The notes under the pieces: generated by a model
What the model was told of the DNA's origin: nothing
Databases searched by the model: none
Seen by the model: the letters and a program-made list of their open reading frames with translations, nothing else
NCBI GenBank assembly: GCA_030697165.1
Contig: JAUYQQ010000004.1
Coordinates: forward strand, 269,390-333,389
Direction of reading: 5' to 3'
DNA from: Acidobacteriota bacterium
GTDB taxonomy: Bacteria; Acidobacteriota; Vicinamibacteria; Vicinamibacterales; UBA2999
DNA length: 64,000 nt
Shown: one piece after another, positions 4,700-61,210 of the stretch
Numbering within the stretch: the first letter of the stretch is position 1
Layout: each line of letters opens with the position of its first letter
Made by a program: the position numbers and the translations under genes

Positions 4700-4733
4700 T
4701 TAGCTCGCCCCACCAACGCACCCCAGGCCCCTT

Positions 4734-4751
4734 AGGCACCTTAGGCACCTT
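4734..4751. repeat. Two AGGCACCTT 9-bp units upstream of the M28 gene
   Basis: Two perfect tandem AGGCACCTT units sit in the leader of the M28 gene. The same 9-mer, with changes only at the last positions, forms longer arrays inside murU (12781-12879) and nadB (59963-60007). Confidence 0.8.
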
Positions 4752-4754
4752 AGC

Positions 4755-4830
4755 CCCGCCTTCGCTCGCCACGGCACAGCGCGAGCTTCGGCGAGGTCTC
4801 GCCGTAGCGGCCTCCGGCCGCGTAGGCGGA
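4755..4830. repeat. CCGCCTACGC-type composite palindrome, copy 1 (inverted orientation)
   Basis: Read on the minus strand the element is TCCGCCTACGC, an 11-nt variable spacer, a central GCTACGGCG-n-CGCCGAAGC palindrome, a second variable spacer, and GCGAAGGCGGG. The same ordered blocks occur at 5331-5390 and, inside smc, at 49757-49831. The outer blocks are themselves near-inverted repeats. Intergenic here. Confidence 0.85.
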
Positions 4831-11738: not shown

Positions 11739-12293
11739 ATGGCGCTCGAGCGCGAGATCAAGCTTCGTTTCAGTAGTGCCGAAGAGGCACGAACGAAGAT
11801 TCTCGCGCTCGGCGCAGCGCCGCTGCACGGCCGCCGGCTCCAGGAAGACGCGCTGCTCGATACCGAAGACGAGACGCTGCGCCGGCAGCGTTCGACGCTG
11901 CGGGTGCGGTCCGAAGGCGGCAAGAGCCTGCTCACGTTCAAGGGGCCCATCCTGCCCGGCGTCATCAAGGTCCGCGAAGAACACGAGACCATCGTTGCCG
12001 ACGGCATCGTCCTGCTGGCCATTCTCGAGGGCCTCGGCCTGCACATCTGGTTTCGCTACGAGAAGTACCGCGAGGAGTTCGAGGCAGACGATGTGGTGAT
12101 GGCGGTGGACGAGACGCCGGTCGGCGTGTTCGTGGAACTCGAGGGCGGCGAGGCGGCCATTCACGCCACGGCGGCGGCGCTCGGCTTCGCGCCGGCCGAG
12201 TACATCACCGACTCGTATCGGTTCCTGTTCTTGCAGCATCGCGAGGCGAACGGCCTGTCCGGCGCCGACATGGTGTTCGCCGCCACCGAATGA
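11739..12293 (+). CDS. CYTH-domain (class IV adenylate cyclase / triphosphatase-like) protein
   Basis: The 184-residue product opens with the CYTH signature EREIKLRF (the ExExK metal/triphosphate site) and has the alternating charged strands of a triphosphate tunnel: RQRSTLRVRSEGGKSLLTFKG split by loops, WFRYEKYREEF and VFVELEG. CYTH enzymes hydrolyse or cyclise triphosphates such as thiamine triphosphate, inorganic triphosphate or ATP; the substrate here is unknown. The ATG of the next gene overlaps its stop (ATGA at 12290-12293), so it is cotranslated with the MurU-like gene. Its leader, 11702-11738, holds a GATTAGACAC motif that recurs before asnS. Confidence 0.82.
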   Translation: MALEREIKLRFSSAEEARTKILALGAAPLHGRRLQEDALLDTEDETLRRQRSTLRVRSEGGKSLLTFKGPILPGVIKVREEHETIVADGIVLLAILEGLGLHIWFRYEKYREEFEADDVVMAVDETPVGVFVELEGGEAAIHATAAALGFAPAEYITDSYRFLFLQHREANGLSGADMVFAATE

Positions 12294-13312
12294 GTAATTT
12301 ATCGCGATGGCCGGCGCTGGTACTCACCGCCGGCCTCGCCACTCGCCTGCAGCCGCTGTCACACGTCCGCGCCAAGGCGGCGCTGCCGGTCGCCGGCGAG
12401 GCGCTGGTGGTGCGGATTCTGCGTTCGCTGCGCGCCGCGGGCGTCACCAGGGTCGTCCTCAACCTGCATCACCGCTCCGAAACCATCACGCGTGAAGTGG
12501 GCGACGGGTCGGCGCTGGACTTGTCAGTCCGCTACTCGTGGGAGACCGAGGTGCTGGGATCGGCCGGCGGCCCGGCGCGGGCCATGCCGTTGCTCGAGGC
12601 GGACCGCTTTCTGATCGTCAACGGCGATACGCTCGCGGATGTCGACCTCGCCGCGCTGGCCGCGCAGCATGTTGACACCAACGCCCTGGTCACCATGGCG
12701 GTGGTGGATGCCGACCCTCGCTACAACGCGATCCTGGCCGATGACAGCGGCGTCGTGACAGGCTTCAAAAAGAGCACCCCAGGCACCGCAGGCACCGTAG
12801 GCACCGTAGGCACCGTAGGCACCGTAGGCACCGTAGGCACCGTAGGCACCGTAGGCACCGTAGGCACCTTAGGCACTTTTCATTTCATTGGCGTGCAGGC
12901 CGTGAACGCCGCGGCGTTTGCAGGCGTCAGTCCGTCGGCGCGATCCGAGACGGTCCACGGGATGTATCCGGACCTCATCGCGCAACGTCCCGGCCGCCTG
13001 CGCGTGATGCGAACCACCGCCGAGTTCTTCGACATCGGCACGCCGCGCGACTACCTGGATACCTCGTTGAAGCTGACCGCCCGAGAGGGCCGCGCCCCGG
13101 ACCGGGGCCATGGCTGCGCCATCGCAGCCGACGCGGCGCTGACCGACACCATTCTCTGGAACAACGTGAGCATCGGCGCCGGCGCCTCACTCACCCGCTG
13201 CATCGCCGCCGACGGCGTCACCGTTCCGGCCGGTGCGAAGCATGTCGATTGCTCGCTCGTAATGCGCGACAATAAGTTGACCGCCGAACCTTTCGAACCC
13301 CTGAACCTCTGA
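12290..13312 (+). CDS. murU: Sugar-1-phosphate nucleotidyltransferase, MurU-like (MurNAc-1-P uridylyltransferase), with in-frame tandem repeat
   Basis: The 340-residue protein has the nucleotidyltransferase signature LTAGLATRLQPLS followed by RAKAALPVAGE, the metal site VNGDTLADVD and a C-terminal beta-helix-like segment (GCAIAADAALTDTILWNNVS). Next to an AmgK-like kinase, MurU is the best reading: it would convert MurNAc 1-phosphate to UDP-MurNAc in peptidoglycan recycling. Other sugar nucleotidyltransferases share the fold. Residues 164-197 are a Gly-Thr-Val array encoded by eleven 9-bp units, placed between the GFKK and FHFIGVQ segments, where relatives should have a short loop. The last residues (PLNL) are encoded by another short repeat (GAACCCCTGAACCTCTGAAC). 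It overlaps the CYTH gene by 4 nt. Confidence 0.8.
   Translation: MSNLSRWPALVLTAGLATRLQPLSHVRAKAALPVAGEALVVRILRSLRAAGVTRVVLNLHHRSETITREVGDGSALDLSVRYSWETEVLGSAGGPARAMPLLEADRFLIVNGDTLADVDLAALAAQHVDTNALVTMAVVDADPRYNAILADDSGVVTGFKKSTPGTAGTVGTVGTVGTVGTVGTVGTVGTVGTLGTFHFIGVQAVNAAAFAGVSPSARSETVHGMYPDLIAQRPGRLRVMRTTAEFFDIGTPRDYLDTSLKLTAREGRAPDRGHGCAIAADAALTDTILWNNVSIGAGASLTRCIAADGVTVPAGAKHVDCSLVMRDNKLTAEPFEPLNL
12781..12879 (+). repeat. In-frame 9-bp tandem array (AGGCACCGT)n inside murU
   Basis: Eleven 9-bp units: one AGGCACCGC, eight identical AGGCACCGT, one AGGCACCTT and one AGGCACTTT. They encode GTA, (GTV)x8, GTL, GTF. The unit length is a multiple of three, so copy-number change keeps the frame. 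Confidence 0.97.
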
Positions 13313-13324
13313 ACCCCTGAACCA

Positions 13325-14311
13325 GTGGATCCCCGACTCGAACAATATCTCGACCTTCAGGGGCTCACCCCGCGCGTGACCACCGTCATGCCGTTGACTG
13401 GCGACGCGTCCGATCGCCGCTACTTCCGCGTGCTGATGAAAGGCGAGCCGCCCATCGTCCTGGCCCTGCATCAGGGGCCGATCGAGTTCGAGAAGATGCC
13501 GTTCGTGGCGATCGCGCGCCTGTTGCGGCAGATCCCGGTGCCCGTGCCGGCCATCCTGCATCACTCCAACGAGCTCGGCGTGCTGGGCCTCGAGGATTTG
13601 GGGGACGTCACGTTGCAGGCGCACCTTGGGTCGACAACGCCGGCCGAGCATGCCGCGTTGTACCGCCAGGCCGTGTCGTTCATCGCGCACATGCAGCAGC
13701 GCGGCGAGGAGTTGCGGTCGCCGGAATATCCGCCGTACCAGATCGCCTTCGACGTCGAGAAGCTCACCTGGGAGTTGGAGTTTTTCGTCAAGCATTACCT
13801 GCTCGCCTACAAGGGGGCGGCCCCGGGCGAGGCGCACCGCGAGGCGCTGCGCGGCGAGTGGTCGGCGATTGTCGAGGAGCTCGCGGGTGAGCCACGGGTG
13901 CTGTGCCACCGCGATTACCACAGCCGCAACCTGATGCTGCACGGCGGCTCGCTCTTCATCATCGACTTCCAGGACGCCCGCATGGGGCCCGACACCTACG
14001 ACCTGGCCTCGCTGCTCCGCGACGCCTACGTGGACCTGACGGCGCCGCAGGTCGATGAGCTGATTGCGTTCTTCCTGGCCCTGAAGGGCCTGCGCCGGGC
14101 CGAAGACCAGGCCGAGTTCCGCCGCCGGTTCGACCTGATGGCGCTGCAGCGCAACCTCAAGGCGCTCGGCACGTTCGGCTACATGACCACCGGCCGCAAC
14201 AACACGGTCTACATTCAGTACATCCCGCGCACGCTGAGCCACGTGAAGGCGAATCTCGCGAAGTATCCACGGTTCGCGCGGCTGCGCGAGCTGCTCGACC
14301 AGTGGCTGTAA
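13325..14311 (+). CDS. amgK: Aminoglycoside phosphotransferase-fold sugar kinase, AmgK-like
   Basis: The 328-residue protein has the APH/choline-kinase fold: a nucleotide-binding segment GDASDRRYFRVLM, the hinge GLEDLGDVTL, the catalytic loop CHRDYHSRNLM and the metal-binding IIDFQDARMGP. In Pseudomonas AmgK phosphorylates the anomeric hydroxyl of MurNAc or GlcNAc for MurU, and these two genes are adjacent there as here. A Ser/Thr-kinase-related phosphotransferase of other specificity is the alternative. It starts with GTG 13325, 12 bp after the stop of murU, in a run of GAACCCCTGAACC repeats. Position and overlap suggest one operon CYTH-murU-amgK-isomerase. Confidence 0.82.
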   Translation: MDPRLEQYLDLQGLTPRVTTVMPLTGDASDRRYFRVLMKGEPPIVLALHQGPIEFEKMPFVAIARLLRQIPVPVPAILHHSNELGVLGLEDLGDVTLQAHLGSTTPAEHAALYRQAVSFIAHMQQRGEELRSPEYPPYQIAFDVEKLTWELEFFVKHYLLAYKGAAPGEAHREALRGEWSAIVEELAGEPRVLCHRDYHSRNLMLHGGSLFIIDFQDARMGPDTYDLASLLRDAYVDLTAPQVDELIAFFLALKGLRRAEDQAEFRRRFDLMALQRNLKALGTFGYMTTGRNNTVYIQYIPRTLSHVKANLAKYPRFARLRELLDQWL

Positions 14312-16626: not shown

Positions 16627-16642
16627 GACTGGGTAGTTGGCA

Positions 16643-18022
16643 ATGAAGATAGGGTTCGTCTCCTTGGGGTGCCCCAAGAATCTCGTCGACTCCGAGGTCA
16701 TGCTCGGCATGGCCGAGAAGGAGGGGCACGAGATCACCGCCGACGCGTCGCAGGCCGACGTGCTGGTGGTGAACACCTGCGCTTTCATCGATCGCGCGAA
16801 GCAGGAATCGATCGATACCATCCTCGAGATGGCCGAGCTCAAGAAGCAGGTGGCCGGGCGCAAGCTCGTGGTCACCGGCTGCATGGCCGAGCGCTACCGG
16901 GATGAGCTGAAGCTAGAGATTCCCGAGATCGATGCGATCTACGGAACCGGCGAGGTCGAAGGCCTGGCTGGATTCATGTCGGGAGTCGGGAGTCGGGAGT
17001 CGGGAGTCGGGTCGGGCGTCGCGATTCCGATGACGTTCCACAAGAAGCCCGTCTTCGGAGTCGATCTCCCGACCTATTTGTACGATGCGTCGACGCCGCG
17101 CAAGCGCGTCACGCCGGGGCACTATGCCTACGTCAAGATCGCCGAGGGCTGCGACTACAAGTGCGCCTTCTGCATCATCCCGAAGATGCGCGGCCACTAC
17201 CGCAGCCGGCCGATCGAGTCGATCGTCCAGGAAGCGCACCAGTTGGCCGCCCAGGGGGTGAAAGAACTGCTGCTGATCTCGCAGGACTCGACCTTTTACG
17301 GCATCGACCGCGGCGAACGCGGCGCGCTGCCGAAACTGCTGCGCGCGCTGAACGGCGTCGACGGCATCGAGTGGATTCGCCTGCTGTATCTCTACCCCAC
17401 CACCATCACCGGCGAGGTGATCGACGCCGTCGCCGACCTCGACAAGGTGGTCAAGTACATCGACCTGCCGCTGCAGCACGCGTCCGATGCGGTGCTCAAG
17501 CGCATGAAGCGGCCGGGCACGCGCAAGTCGTACGTGCGCCTGCTCGAAAACATCCGCGCCCGCATCCCCAACGTCGCCCTGCGCACCACCTTCATCGTCG
17601 GCTTCCCCGGCGAGACGGCCGACGACTTCGCCGAACTCGAGGGCTTCATTACCGAGATTGGCTTCGACCACGTCGGTGTCTTCACGTATTCGCACGAGGA
17701 AGGCACCTCGGCCCACGACCTGGCCGATGACGTGCCCGCGGCCACCAAGAAGAAGCGCCAGAACGCCCTGATGGCCCGGCAGAAGAAGATCGTGGCGGCC
17801 CGCCAGAAACGCCGGCTCGGCGAACAGACCCGGCTGGTGGTGGACGGCCCGTCGCCAGAGCATGAGCTGGTCCTGCAGGGCCGGCTGCCCGGCCAGGCCC
17901 CCGAAATCGACCCCGTGGTCTACCTGACCGACTGCGACCCTTCGGCGTTCCCGATGGGGTCGTTCGTCGACGTGGAAATCGTCGGCGCCGAGGGCTACGA
18001 CCTGGTCGCCCGCCCCCTGTAG
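16643..18022 (+). CDS. rimO: Ribosomal protein S12 methylthiotransferase RimO, with short tandem insertion
   Basis: The 459-residue enzyme adds a methylthio group to Asp-88/89 of ribosomal protein S12. The UPF0004 domain carries three cluster cysteines (SLGCPKN, VNTCAFI, VTGCMAER). The radical SAM site is C170xxxC174xxC177 in CDYKCAFC. A TRAM domain closes the C-terminus (VVYLTDCDPSAFPMGSFVDV). ATG 16643 is preferred to the TTG at 16637. Around residues 113-125 the linker reads SGVGSRESGVGSGV; it is encoded by four GGGAGTC heptamers at 16981-17008, an unusual spot between the two metal domains. It lies directly upstream of the rimP-nusA-infB operon. Confidence 0.93.
   Translation: MKIGFVSLGCPKNLVDSEVMLGMAEKEGHEITADASQADVLVVNTCAFIDRAKQESIDTILEMAELKKQVAGRKLVVTGCMAERYRDELKLEIPEIDAIYGTGEVEGLAGFMSGVGSRESGVGSGVAIPMTFHKKPVFGVDLPTYLYDASTPRKRVTPGHYAYVKIAEGCDYKCAFCIIPKMRGHYRSRPIESIVQEAHQLAAQGVKELLLISQDSTFYGIDRGERGALPKLLRALNGVDGIEWIRLLYLYPTTITGEVIDAVADLDKVVKYIDLPLQHASDAVLKRMKRPGTRKSYVRLLENIRARIPNVALRTTFIVGFPGETADDFAELEGFITEIGFDHVGVFTYSHEEGTSAHDLADDVPAATKKKRQNALMARQKKIVAARQKRRLGEQTRLVVDGPSPEHELVLQGRLPGQAPEIDPVVYLTDCDPSAFPMGSFVDVEIVGAEGYDLVARPL
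16981..17008 (+). repeat. In-frame (GGGAGTC)4 tandem repeat inside rimO
   Basis: Four perfect GGGAGTC heptamers followed by a GGGTC partial unit. They lie in the linker between the UPF0004 and radical SAM domains. Loss or gain of one 7-bp unit would shift the frame, so rimO may be slippage-prone. Confidence 0.9.
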
Positions 18023-18063
18023 AACCCCCGGGCTTGAACCCCCGGGCTTGAACCTCCGGGCTT
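18022..18063. repeat. 14-bp tandem repeat after rimO
   Basis: Three copies of a 14-bp unit (GAACCCCCGGGCTT twice, GAACCTCCGGGCTT once) and a partial fourth lie right after the rimO stop codon, whose last base is part of the array. Confidence 0.85.
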
Positions 18064-18132
18064 GAACCCGGTGAAAACCACAGTTCTTTCCCCGTGTTAC
18101 ACTATGAGGTCGGTTCTTAGTCTGGGTTAACC

Positions 18133-49088: not shown

Positions 49089-52000
49089 TTCAGCTGAATC
49101 GAGATGAGCTTCGACACGCCGGGCTCTTCCATGGTCACGCCGTAGAGCCGATCGGCGATCTCCATGGTCTTGCGGCTGTGCGTGATGATGATGAACTGGG
49201 TCTTGTCCATCATCGACCGCAGCATGTCGATGAACCGCCCGATGTTGGCATCGTCCAGCGGCGCGTCAATTTCGTCGAGCAGGCAGAACGGGCTCGGCTT
49301 GTAGCGGAAAATCGCGAACATCAACGCGATCGCGGTCAGCGCTTTCTCGCCGCCCGAGAGCAGCATGACGCTCTGCAGCCGCTTGCCGGGAGGCGAGGCA
49401 ATGATGTCGATGCCGCTCTCGAGCGGATCGTTCTCGTCGAGCAGCGTGATGCCGGCCTTGCCGCCGCCGAACAGCGTGGCAAAGGTCACCTGAAAGTTCT
49501 CGTTGATGGCGCTGAACGCCTCGCGGAAGCGGGCATGCGTGGTCTCGTCGATCTTGCTGATCGCTTCGTTGGTCTGGGCGATCGAGTCGATCAGGTCCTG
49601 ACGCTGCGTCGAGAGGAACAGGTGGCGTTCCTCGAGCTCCTTCGACTGCTCGATGGCCATCATGTTGACCGGCCCCATGCGGTCGATCTTGTCGCGTAGT
49701 TCGGCGATCGCCTCTTCGGCGGTCATGCGTTCCGCAGGTGCCTGGGGAGCCTCAGGCCCGCCTTCGCTGCCGGGGGCAGCTTCGGCGAGGTCTCGCCGTA
49801 GCTCCTCAGAATCGGCAGGAGCGTAGGCGGATGCCTCCTCTTCGTCCGGTTCGGCGGCTTCCGCGGCGCGGATCGCGCGCACGTCGGGTTCGATTTGGCC
49901 CGCGGCCTCCATCTCGGCCACCTGGTCGCGAATCTCGTCGAGGGTGGCGTTGACGGTGTCCATGGACTGCTGCGCCAGGTGCGTCAGGTCCGATTCCGCG
50001 GTGGCGCGCTGTACGTCCACTTCGGCGGCGAGCGCGCGCAGCGCATCCACGGCGCGGCGGGCATCGCGAATCACTTCTTCTTGCTTCTCGGCCGACTGCT
50101 TGATCGTCAGCGCCAACTCGTCGGCGACGATCATTTCCTCGCGCAGGCCCTGGAGCCGGCCGACGTCGTCGTCCATCAGCCGCTGGCCATCGGCAATGGC
50201 ATTGATCAACCGCTCGCGCTGCTCGCGCATCAGCGCCACGTCGCGGGTGCAGGCCTGGACCCGGCGTTCGAGCTCGGCCGCGGCCTCTTCCATCCGCGCC
50301 ACTTCGGCCAGCGCGCCGGCACTGCGTTCGATCAGCCCGGCGTGCGCGGCGCGGGCCTCGGCCGCCTTCTGGCTGAGCCCTTCGGCGGTCTCGCGCGCCT
50401 CGTAGAGCTTGCGCTGCGATTCCGACAGCGTCTGGTCGGCTTCGACGCGCTGCTCGTTCAGCCGCGCGATCGACTCGCGGGCCTCGGCCTGCCGGGCATC
50501 CAAACCGGCGACTTCCTCGCGGACGCGGCTGACCTCGGTCTGCACCAGCTCAGTGCGCTGCTGCACGCGCAACTCGTCATCGGCCGCGCGCTCGCTTTGG
50601 CCTTCGACGCCGACGATGGCCTTTTCCTGGCGATGGAATTCAGCCGACAGTCCGGCAATGGCCGCCGTCGCCATGGCAATGGTCTGCTCGAAGCCCGCGG
50701 TGTCGGAGACGAGCTGCTCGAGGGCCGCCTTCGCGGCCGCGAGCTTCTCGCGCAGTTCCTTGATCTCGCGCTTGGTGGCGAGAATGCCGCGCGACTCGGC
50801 CTTGTCGCCGCCGGTCACGACATGCCGGCCGCGGAACACGTCGCCTTCGAGCGTGGCCACCGGGTACGGCACGGTCGGGGCAATGCGCGAGGCCGCCTCG
50901 AACGACTCGGCGATCATGGCGCCGCCCATCACGGCCTGCACGGCCTGCGGGAAGGGACCACCGATGCGGACCACCGAAGTCAGTGCGACGGCGCCCGGTG
51001 GAACCGACATCTCAGTCGAGGACCCGCCCACTAGCCCACCAAACGAACTCGTCGCGGTCTCGACGAACGAACCTTCGCCGGTGCCTGAATACGTCGCCAC
51101 GGCCGACCCATCGTCGGGACGGCCGACGATGAAGCCGCAGCGGCCGGCGTTCTCCTGGCGGATCAGCTTGAGGCCGGCCGAGACGTGGTCGAGTCGCTCG
51201 ACCACCACGTGCTGCAGCAGGTCGCCGAGACAGGCCTCGACGGCGCGCTCGTACTTCGGTTCGACTTCGATGAAGTCGGCGAGGGCGCCCATCTGCCCCA
51301 CCTTGCCGTTGGCGTTGACCAGCACCATGCGGGCCGCGTCGGCAAAGCCGGAGCGGTGGGTGTCGATCTCTTCGAGCGAATGCAGGCGGGCCGTCATCGC
51401 GGCCACTTCCTGCTCACGCGTGCGCACGTCCCGCGAGCGCCATTCGTGCTCGATGCGGGCGCTGGCCAGTTCCGACTCGCGGGCGGCGCGCGCCACCCTG
51501 GCGGCATCCAGGCCATCCTGCGCCCGTCGCAAGGCCTCGGCCGCCATCTGGCGCTGGGCGCGGGTTTTCTCGAGTTCGGCCGCCAGCTCGCTGGCTTCCA
51601 GTTCCAGCCGGCCCGCCGTCGCCATGGCGCGATCGCGCTGGGCGCCGGCGTTGTCGTGCGCGGCGTTGAGCGCGGTGATGGTGTTCAGCACCGCGTAGAC
51701 GTCGGCGCGGGCGCGCTCCACGTCCTGCTCGAGGGCTTCGATGGCTTGTTGCGCGCGCGCGTACTCGTCGCCGGCCTCACTGGCCAGCGCCGACGCTTCG
51801 TCGCGGGCCGCGGCGGCCTCGCTCGCGGCGAGGCGGCGGCCTTCGAGGGCCAGCTGCTCGGGTTCGCGGCGTGCTTCGAGTTGCTGCTTCTCGACTTCGA
51901 GTTCGGCCGCGCGGGCCTGCAGCATCTCCGACTGCTGCGTATCGAGCGCGATCTGCTGCTGGCGGCGGTTGATCTCGAGTTCGTGGCCGTGCACGGTCTC

Positions 52001-59632: not shown

Positions 59633-61210
59633 CTATGTAGTGTCCGGCTTTAGCCGGACCACTGGGTTCTTGTCGACGATATGAACCTTAAAGTTTACGT
59701 CATCTCGGGCCGGGAAGTCGGTCCGCGCGTGCCCGCCCCGCGTTTCCTCGCGGCGCAGTGCCGCGTGCGCCATCAGGCGGCCGACCGTGACGATCGAGGC
59801 CACCCGCCAGTCGGCGTCGGCCAGCCCGCCGGCCTCGAGCCCGGGGACCACGGCGGCGTACCACGCGTCGAGTTTGTGAATGGCAGCCTCGAGCGACGAC
59901 CGTTCGCGCATGAGCCCCACCGCAGTCCACATCAATTCGCGCACTGAGCCCTCGTTTGGGGGGCGCACCTTAGGCACCTTAGGCACCATAGGCACCATAG
60001 GCACCCTGACCGCCTCGGCAAGCTGTCCAGGCTCAGGCGGAAGCAACATCGCCTGAGCCGCCCTGGCTCCAAACACCAAACCTTCGAGCAACGAATTGCT
60101 CGCCAGGCGGTTGGCGCCATGGACGCCGGTGCAGGCGACCTCGCCGGCCGCCAGCAGTCCTGGAATCGTGGTCCGGCCCCACAGGTCGGTCTCGACGCCA
60201 CCCATCACGTAGTGCGCCGCGGGGCCAACCGGCACGTGATCGGTGGCCAGGTCGAAACCGGCCTCCCGGCAAGCCCTGGCGATCGTCGGGAACCGGTCTC
60301 GCACCCACGCCGGGTCGAGATGCTGCAACGACAGATAAACCGGCCTGCCGGTGCGTTGCTGCTCGCGCACGATCGCGCGCGACACCAGGTCGCGCGACGC
60401 CAGGTCGCCGGCCGGTTCGTAGCGCGTCATGAACCGCTCGCCGGCGTCGTTGACCAGGAACGCGCCTTCCCCGCGCATGGCCTCCGACAGCAGGAACCGG
60501 GGCGCCCCCAGGGCGCTGAGCGCGGTGGGGTGGAACTGCACGAACTCCATGTCGGCGACCCGGGCGCCGCACTGCCAGGCCAGGGTCACTCCGTCGCCCG
60601 TCGCGATCGACGGGTTCGTGGTCTCCCGGAACACCTGGCCGGCTCCGCCGGTGGCGACGAGCACGGCGGTAGCTTCCACCACGTGAGTGCCGCGGTCGTT
60701 TTCATACGCGGCGCCAACGCAGCGGCCGCCCCGTACCAACAACCGGCTGACGCGGGCGTGCCGTTCGACGCGCACCCGCGCGTGCTCGGCCACCTGGTGC
60801 CAGAGCGCGCGGCCAATCTCCCGGCCGGTCGCATCGGCGGCGTGCATCACCCGGTGCAGCCCATGGGCGCCTTCGCGGCCAAACGACAGTTCGCCCGAGG
60901 GCTCGCGGTCGAAGCGCGCGCCGTTCGCAATCAGTTCGCGGGTATAACGCACGCCGTCTTCCACCAGCACGCGTACCGCCGGCTCGATGCATAGCCCATC
61001 ACCGGCCGCGATCGTGTCGGCCGCATGCAGCGACGGCGAGTCGCCCGGACCAAGCGCCGCGGCAATGCCGCCTTGCGCGTAGCCGGTGTTGCTTTCAGCG
61101 GGATCGGCCTTGGTGAGAATGAGGACGTCGCCGGCCATGGCGAGATCGGCGGCCGCGCGCAATCCCGCAATGCCGCTGCCGATGACCAGGAAGTCCGTAC
61201 GCCGTTGCAC
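59633..61210 (-). CDS. nadB: L-aspartate oxidase, with a repeat array and repeat-derived C-terminus
   Basis: The 525-residue FAD enzyme oxidises L-aspartate to iminoaspartate, the first step of NAD synthesis. The FAD motif is DFLVIGSGIAGLRAAADLA. Other signatures are TGYAQGGIAAALG, SFGREGAHGLHR and the substrate loop ACTGVHGANRLASNSLLEGL. Residues about 402-416 are VPMVPMVPKVPKV, from a 9-bp tandem array. The last residues (VVRLKPDTT) are encoded by a TCCGGCTTTAGCCGGA palindrome. The start GTG 61210 gives the FAD motif six residues in; no other start fits. Confidence 0.93.
   Translation of the reverse strand: MQRRTDFLVIGSGIAGLRAAADLAMAGDVLILTKADPAESNTGYAQGGIAAALGPGDSPSLHAADTIAAGDGLCIEPAVRVLVEDGVRYTRELIANGARFDREPSGELSFGREGAHGLHRVMHAADATGREIGRALWHQVAEHARVRVERHARVSRLLVRGGRCVGAAYENDRGTHVVEATAVLVATGGAGQVFRETTNPSIATGDGVTLAWQCGARVADMEFVQFHPTALSALGAPRFLLSEAMRGEGAFLVNDAGERFMTRYEPAGDLASRDLVSRAIVREQQRTGRPVYLSLQHLDPAWVRDRFPTIARACREAGFDLATDHVPVGPAAHYVMGGVETDLWGRTTIPGLLAAGEVACTGVHGANRLASNSLLEGLVFGARAAQAMLLPPEPGQLAEAVRVPMVPMVPKVPKVRPPNEGSVRELMWTAVGLMRERSSLEAAIHKLDAWYAAVVPGLEAGGLADADWRVASIVTVGRLMAHAALRREETRGGHARTDFPARDDVNFKVHIVDKNPVVRLKPDTT
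59642..59659. repeat. GTCCGGCTTTAGCCGGAC palindrome at the nadB end
   Basis: Perfect 7-bp stem with a 4-nt centre. It encodes VRLKPDT, part of the nadB C-terminal tail. Same core as the copy at 29691-29706 in the glpQ signal region. Confidence 0.85.
59963..60007. repeat. In-frame 9-bp tandem array inside nadB
   Basis: Five 9-bp units: one GCGCACCTT, AGGCACCTT, two AGGCACCAT and AGGCACCCT. On the minus strand they encode VPMVPMVPKVPKV. Same consensus as 4734-4751 and the murU array. Confidence 0.92.

Follow-up and report, generated by a model that had tools for sequence, protein, structure and literature searches.

A 9-bp tandem array in a MurU-like gene of an Acidobacteriota bacterium is probably a recently expanded member of a dispersed short-tandem-repeat family

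The MurU-like gene and its tandem array

The window analysed here is a stretch of 64,000 nucleotides from the genome of an Acidobacteriota bacterium (designated G000; G001–G008 are its eight congeners and C numbers are G000 contigs). Its features are collected in Table 1. The protein encoded by the array-bearing gene matches PF00483 with 71.6 bits (cut-off 21.2), and two LbH/hexapeptide matches in its C-terminal part are both under the cut-off. Its best solved relative is 4y7t_A (E 2.9e-22). The first-pass annotation had called the gene product MurU-like. The similarity to the NCBIfam MurU model NF045761 is real, but its 101.4 bits lie below the cut-off of 250, so that the curated MurU score is not reached; NF052502 gave 123.1 bits with a cut-off of 440. 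The kinase encoded directly downstream scored 140.8 bits with the AmgK model NF045759 (cut-off 550). In comparison with MurU (4y7t, 8hhd), the protein belongs to the same nucleotidyltransferase family, whereas the score under the curated cut-off, the longer C-terminal part with its sub-threshold LbH matches and the repeat insert set it apart; the adjoining gene encodes a kinase that resembles AmgK at a score below the curated cut-off. For brevity, its array is called the MurU array below.

Table 1. Genes and repeat arrays of the window, in window coordinates.
Feature	Position	Strand	Remarks
Second family array	4716–4751	+	4 units (two imperfect); divergent intergenic, between M28 peptidase gene and small ORF
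CYTH-domain protein gene	11739–12293	+	directly upstream of MurU-like gene; PF01928, 63.5 bits
NTP-transferase gene, MurU-like	12290–13312	+	340 aa; PF00483; possible C-terminal hexapeptide/LbH-like part
Left-most in-register unit GCACCCC, linker CCAG	12774–12780	+	Ser-Thr-Pro ahead of first full unit
9-bp array, AGGCACCGC + 8 x AGGCACCGT + AGGCACCTT + AGGCACTTT	12781–12879	+	encodes (Gly-Thr-Val)n
AmgK-like kinase gene, aminoglycoside-phosphotransferase family	13325–14311	+	directly downstream of MurU-like gene; PF01636, 96 bits
nadB (L-aspartate oxidase)	59633–61210	-	host of third array; TIGR00551, 526.1 bits (cut-off 452.75)
Third family array	59963–60007	+	5 units; antisense within nadB, (Val-Pro-Met/Lys)n

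The array starts with AGGCACCGC at 12781–12789, continues with eight copies of AGGCACCGT (12790–12861) and ends with AGGCACCTT (12862–12870) and AGGCACTTT (12871–12879). Its earlier description as eight identical and three degenerate 9-bp units is exact, with one degenerate unit on the left and two on the right. At the left end, the array is slightly longer than first noted, with an in-register GCACC-CCAG unit from 12774. TRF reported positions 12781–12876 with a period of 9, 10.7 copies, 97% matches and a score of 178, the top score listed in the window. Furthermore, AGGCACCNT occurs 15 times in the window compared with 1.67 ± 1.30 expected, and none of 100 shuffles reached 15. The array is in frame within the 340-aa ORF, and its period corresponds to three codons, so that the frame is kept, as had been pointed out before.

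The insert had also been placed in a loop between core strands. In the alignment with three congeners (G003, G005 and G002, i.e. the MAGs Baikal-G1, Baikal-deep-G12 and E14_maxbin.140), the congener proteins are 31 residues shorter, and the insert lies between the conserved segments '...GF...P' and 'G.FHF'. When the E14 congener was aligned to 4y7t, the insert site fell at 'APG-TLTFSGI'. Structural modelling with AlphaFold (four sequences) gave a mean pLDDT of 43.8, with the insert as a coil between strands 156–160 and 201–204. The position between conserved segments thus holds, while the placement between strands comes from a low-confidence model and can be suggested at most.

A separate 8-bp array with a GAACC core (GAACCCCT) is present at 13286–13323, where it covers the 3' end of the MurU-like gene and extends to where the AmgK-like gene begins. 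It supplies the last residues (EPFEPLNL) and the stop codon of the MurU-like gene, and the EPLNL part is missing at the end of the three aligned congener MurU proteins.

A repeat family dispersed through the genome

The 5.39-Mb, 23-contig genome contains 217 matches of AGGCACCNTAGGCACC (113 forward and 104 reverse), while the reversed control gave 0. When 99 genomes of the order (Vicinamibacterales) were searched, own included, the triple unit was found 122 times in the own genome, 2, 1 and 1 times in three congeners and not at all in the other 95. Among the genomes searched, the family in its AGGCACCNT form is nearly confined to its own species. The triple unit had no match in a viral contig collection, and a phage origin was rejected for this reason.

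Sixty-one arrays were read. Of these, 38 hold the first 100 listed matches (contigs C1–C10), and 23 on C11–C23 were picked for a unit pair preceded by a non-T base, or as lying in the same stretch, and are not a random sample. At 38 arrays per 100 matches, the genome is estimated to hold roughly 80 arrays. About four fifths of the arrays read are outside genes. Some 110 bp before the window begins (G000:C4:269170) there is a further array of 12 units, and the further copies that the first-pass annotation had named at 4734 and in nadB at 59963 proved to be real arrays. An assembly artefact is exceedingly improbable, given that the MurU array is only 96–99 bp long, has internal variants and keeps an exact frame, and that the family occupies many separate loci on contigs of up to several hundred kb.

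The MurU array could in principle be a purely local minisatellite, in which a chance AGGCACC in the MurU loop was duplicated by slippage, unrelated to the other arrays. Its eight identical units and the similarity of neighbouring units agree with this. However, AGGCACCNT stands in tandem at many loci of the own genome but is nearly absent from the other 98 genomes searched, and the left edge STPGT is common to the MurU array and three other coding arrays (C10:14488, C21:132611 and C22:352089). A purely local origin is therefore very unlikely. The earlier picture of a local minisatellite was too small, since the array belongs to a family scattered over the whole genome and MurU is not special in this respect.

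Successive units are spaced by 9 bp in 261 of 272 gaps. When up to 2 mismatches per unit were allowed, 214 internal units could be compared; positions 2–6 (GGCAC) show 8 mismatches in 1070 and positions 1, 7 and 9 show 59 in 642, while position 8 is free. Among the 105 units that are flanked by perfect units, a stricter set, the corresponding values are 4 in 525 and 16 in 315, and the variability of position 1 is no greater than that of position 2 or 3. The number of cores per array ranges from 1 to 13 with a mode of 5 (12 of 61 arrays), and no sharp preference for four units is seen. Neighbouring units agree in the variable base at position 8 in 75 of 117 pairs, compared with shuffled means of 60 within arrays (none of 2000 shuffles reaching 75) and 42 over all arrays; the longest run of equal bases, eight G, is that of the MurU array. 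Adjacent units alike at position 8 are a mark of tandem copying or slippage, and the growth by slippage proposed earlier is hereby supported, also against the within-array shuffles.

Folding was assessed on both strands. For the nadB array, 200 of 200 shuffles fold at least as well as the plus strand and 81 of 200 as the minus strand. GGG on the other strand of the unit stems only from C-type linkers. A drive by G-quadruplexes or hairpins was rejected, as the unit has no constant GGG tract on either strand and, for each strand of the MurU array, all 200 shuffles fold better than the array itself.

The arrays show a mild polarity. CCAG is the first linker in 9 of 45 arrays compared with 4.2 expected (72 of 10000 permutations were as high), and opposite-strand arrays lie within 300 bp on the left side of 9 of 61 arrays and on the right side of 0 of 61 (six independent loci), which hints at an element with ends. 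Arrays that are paired and inverted, with short spacers and left ends inward, are found at G000:C3:77502–77600, C3:99718–99860 and C4:180568–180776, where long cruciforms would be possible in principle.

Such polarity would suit a small mobile element of the REP/MITE kind, mobilised by a transposase in trans, with the arrays as its ends or its body. The recurrent linker order CCAG-GTAC in stretches of congener G001 and the similarity between some array flanks (50 pairs at E <= 1e-3) point in the same direction. Nevertheless, at the 15 arrays inspected this flank similarity consists mostly of inverted arrays of the own 9-bp family, the strands of the MurU array fold poorly, and no array flanks any of the 30 Y1 (PF01797) loci from five genomes of the genus, with one GCACC pair within ~1.5 kb at only 2 of them. 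REP elements are palindromes with associated Y1 (RAYT) genes (PMC3733652). REP, BIME and REPIN elements resemble the present arrays in being small, dispersed and sometimes paired in inverted orientation (six independent loci here), whereas the MurU array is non-palindromic and the Y1 genes here lack flanking arrays, which leaves the REP/RAYT route unsupported. In our view, a mobile element is rather unlikely as the general explanation, and a longer one is possible at some loci, as judged from the 15 arrays inspected among the 50 similar flank pairs.

Three array flanks share a separate palindromic repeat of 42–49 bp, which is found away from arrays too. Its CTACGGCGAGACCTCGCCG core is located in the window at 4789–4807, near the array at 4716–4751, and at 49783–49801; L087:2654–2672 and L103:1970–1988 lie near two other arrays.

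The position relative to genes was evaluated with gene calls from our own simple codon model, an array counting as in-gene when its midpoint falls in a gene with a score of at least 25. By this definition, the midpoint is in a gene for 12 of 61 arrays, though such genes cover ~94% of the window. Nineteen of the 61 arrays contain the stop codon of a gene, and one contains a start codon. A gene 3' end is present within 100 bp of 36 of 61 arrays (47% of random intergenic positions), and a gene 5' end within 100 bp of 31 of 61 (65% of random intergenic positions). The stop codons may be explained by the TAG that every unit contains in one frame. Between co-directional genes, sense and antisense arrays number 16 and 15, respectively, and the idea of a terminator, based on T-rich DNA after arrays, was dropped on account of these numbers.

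Thirteen arrays were first scored as coding, one of them (C8:255924) in a doubtful 89-aa ORF. Eleven are sense, 10 of these in the Gly-Thr-X (GGC-ACC) frame, and both antisense arrays use the Val-Pro frame. In well-scoring window genes, native GGCACC hexamers are in the Gly-Thr frame in 43 of 52 cases and native GGTGCC in the Val-Pro frame in 21 of 30, and the frame bias could be explained by native seeds or by selection alone. Nine of the ten host proteins submitted pass a Pfam cut-off, to which MurU and NadB add two. The hosts include GlgA, a ComM-like Mg chelatase, a PQQ dehydrogenase, a HerA-like protein, biotin carboxylase, DnaX, a PMT/TPR protein, an amidohydrolase with the array at its C-terminus, and an MFS protein whose end and stop codon are supplied by the array.

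Orthologous loci and related arrays

Thirty orthologous MurU loci were read as protein, 12 of them also as DNA; G006 yielded no readable orthologue. The array is absent in 6 of the 7 readable congener orthologues (G001–G005 and G008), and the seventh, G007, has its own 8-bp repeat AGGCACCC there. The array-free congeners carry GGCGC or GGTGC, not GGCACC. By eye, a simple repeat in or near the loop was recognised at 5 of the 30 loci, namely the 9-mer of G000, AGGCACCC of G007, a TCGCACCG-like repeat in G018, a GACTCCC heptamer a few residues upstream in G044, and three GCACCTGCC-like units in G029, which could be ordinary Ala-Pro.

An array that sits between conserved enzyme segments and can change length without a frameshift might be a contingency locus, whose unit number tunes MurU and hence peptidoglycan recycling. 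In a phase-variable locus of this kind, a change in length would shift the reading frame, whereas the 9-bp period preserves it. Arrays of the same family also occur in GlgA, ComM, NadB, DnaX, biotin carboxylase and others, and the absence from six congener orthologues argues further against such tuning, which we regard as highly improbable. MurU presumably keeps working with a longer flexible loop, and no special role of the repeat in MurU needs to be assumed.

For NadB, 12 genomes were searched, of which G001, G003 and G004 gave only more distant matches. Four of the nine orthologues read carry arrays, namely those of G000, G006, G007 and G008. These four arrays all differ in kind, and three have other unit types. 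In the array-free orthologues, no GGTGCC array seed was seen by eye. The other families in this loop include GGGCTGGTN in G008 (L223) and a 33-bp unit containing GGTGCCAGGCACC in G007 (L225).

Among nine GlgA orthologues read, G000 and G006 contain arrays, the latter its own 8-bp array. In 4 of 8 congeners (G001, G002, G003 and G005), GGCACCGT (GGC ACC GTN) is located exactly at the edge of the G000 array, and G005 already has two cores, while G004, G007 and G008 are without GGCACC at this edge. The GlgA array was apparently gained on a native GGCACC, as this comparison of orthologues suggests. In ComM, of which eight sequences were read and a G007 fragment was left out, the Gly-Thr pairs number 9 in G000, 3 in G003, 2 in G005, 5 in G006 and 5 in G008, and no such array is present in G001, G002 and G004. 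The same loop harbours another family, AGAGGCGGGTC, in G002 (L253, in tandem) and G001 (L256, with an inverted copy). The number of units at one locus thus differs between related genomes in the five species with ComM arrays; MurU was compared for presence or absence only. Taken together, the orthologous sequences suggest that arrays are gained at tolerant loops and then change in unit number and linker between species.

Related species carry arrays that have the GCACC core in common but differ in their linkers, in some cases within the same loops. GCACC cores with 7–9-bp spacing were found in 80 of 99 genomes of the order, with 1 to 1098 matches per genome, the highest count being that of G013, a genome of the same taxonomic family (1098 GCACC-triple matches, reversed control 44). 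Reversed controls were mostly below 10, with 17 in G036, 44 in G013 and 92 in G091, where the control exceeds the matches. As the count at period 9 is inflated by coding Ala-Pro linkers, the version with 7–8-bp spacing was relied on more. With this spacing, 8 of 18 genomes of the order (own included) gave at least 12 matches. None of the 181 other genomes of the phylum did so (maximum 11); in one of these, G226, the reversed control reaches 63. In congener G001, the linker pair CCAG-GTAC occurs in 6 of 14 stretches hand-picked from the match list, CCAG-GTAC-(C/T)TAG in 2 of 14 and GCACCAA(A/C)CC in 6.

A second family with the unit GTCGGGA is patchy, being present in 10 of 99 genomes (own included). 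In the window, a GTCGGGA heptamer array of 4.9 copies (16978–17011) is situated inside the ORF 16637–18022, which is RimO/MiaB-like by eye, and a 14-bp GAACCCCCGGGCTT array of 3.4 copies (18022–18069) is situated at the stop codon of this ORF.

The nearly invariant core, with its free linker, raises the alternative that GGCAC boxes are putative protein-binding sites, whose spacing and core are kept by selection, with copying as a by-product. It would be in line with this that several genomes of the order share the GCACC core at periods of 7, 8 and 9 bp, and that the position of the arrays, which overlap stop codons far more often than start codons, is non-random. However, the arrays are indifferent to strand between co-directional genes, reside in functionally unrelated genes and are often missing from orthologous loci. 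In addition, the stop codons may stem from the TAG of the unit, the constancy of the core across the order is by construction, as GCACC was the search term, and coding Ala-Pro linkers also match this search at period 9. Selection for binding sites is therefore distinctly unlikely as the explanation.

Proposed origin and significance

The family displays dispersal, local tandem copying, entry into specific loops, a frame bias and species-specific linkers. We consider it probable that the MurU array is a recently expanded member of a dispersed short-tandem-repeat family with the unit AGGCACCNT and the core GGCAC, which is seeded, grown by slippage and filtered by selection. In this mechanism, the seed would be a GGCACC-like site, which within genes often consists of native Gly-Thr codons, and it would gain units from other arrays by short-homology copying. 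The array would then lengthen or shrink in place in 9-bp steps, by slippage or unequal exchange, and selection would spare it in genes only where it keeps the frame and its position is tolerant. The seed idea derives mainly from GlgA and should be read accordingly as a conjecture from orthologous sequences. Since the core is nearly invariant, slippage and neutral mutation alone are insufficient; a constant core fits either a priming requirement, with the core as the short homology, or protein binding.

A broader version can be formulated, in which the order possesses a sequence-directed process that copies GGCAC-core boxes with 7-, 8- or 9-bp spacing into native GGCACC-like sites, the core being the recognition or priming sequence and the linker drifting by lineage. 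This is unlikely in our estimation. If it were true, concerted evolution of the scattered arrays and repeated hits on the same protein loops would follow.

Several known systems share features with the seeded and slippage-grown family proposed here. The STRR and other small dispersed repeats of cyanobacteria are dispersed short tandem units of free-living bacteria with suspected mobility, and the STRR heptamers were reportedly described by Mazel in 1990. The present arrays are likened to them by description, not by sequence, as both consist of dispersed short tandem units but the units are different. The palindromic elements of Rickettsia enter proteins as in-frame repeats at tolerant positions. 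In-frame entry at tolerant sites is shared with the present arrays, whereas the Rickettsia elements are longer palindromes and those here are 9-bp tandem arrays.

The closest description is that of the GGGNATC and GGGGA(C/T)T heptamer repeats of Xanthomonas and Nostoc, for which the authors found no function (PMC4692102). These heptamers and the present repeats have in common a short unit, many arrays on both strands, a non-coding bias, a variable unit number and lineage specificity (PMC4692102). On the other hand, the unit here is a 9-bp one with a GGCAC core and no constant GGG tract of the G-quadruplex type, a sharp four-unit preference is not seen, and in-frame arrays occur within genes. 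A recent survey reports a subset of 6–9-bp repeats enriched in prokaryotic phyla (PMC12699852). Among the matches listed in a literature search, no title or abstract opening describes GCACC arrays in Acidobacteriota. A short unit at many loci, an excess outside genes and a unit number that varies between genomes were all found here, as for dispersed short tandem repeats. By analogy, the family may best be read as one of the STRR or Xanthomonas GGGNATC type, lineage-specific and invading genes in frame.

In this bacterial lineage, a repeat of only 9 bp has reached dozens of loci, and equivalent loops of central enzymes differ between species in the repeat that they carry. This makes testable how bacterial short tandem repeats disperse without an obvious transposase, and how far enzymes tolerate in-frame repeat growth. 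It is also a caution to annotators not to take (GTV)n, (VPK)n and similar inserts in these proteins for domains; they are repeats at the DNA level.
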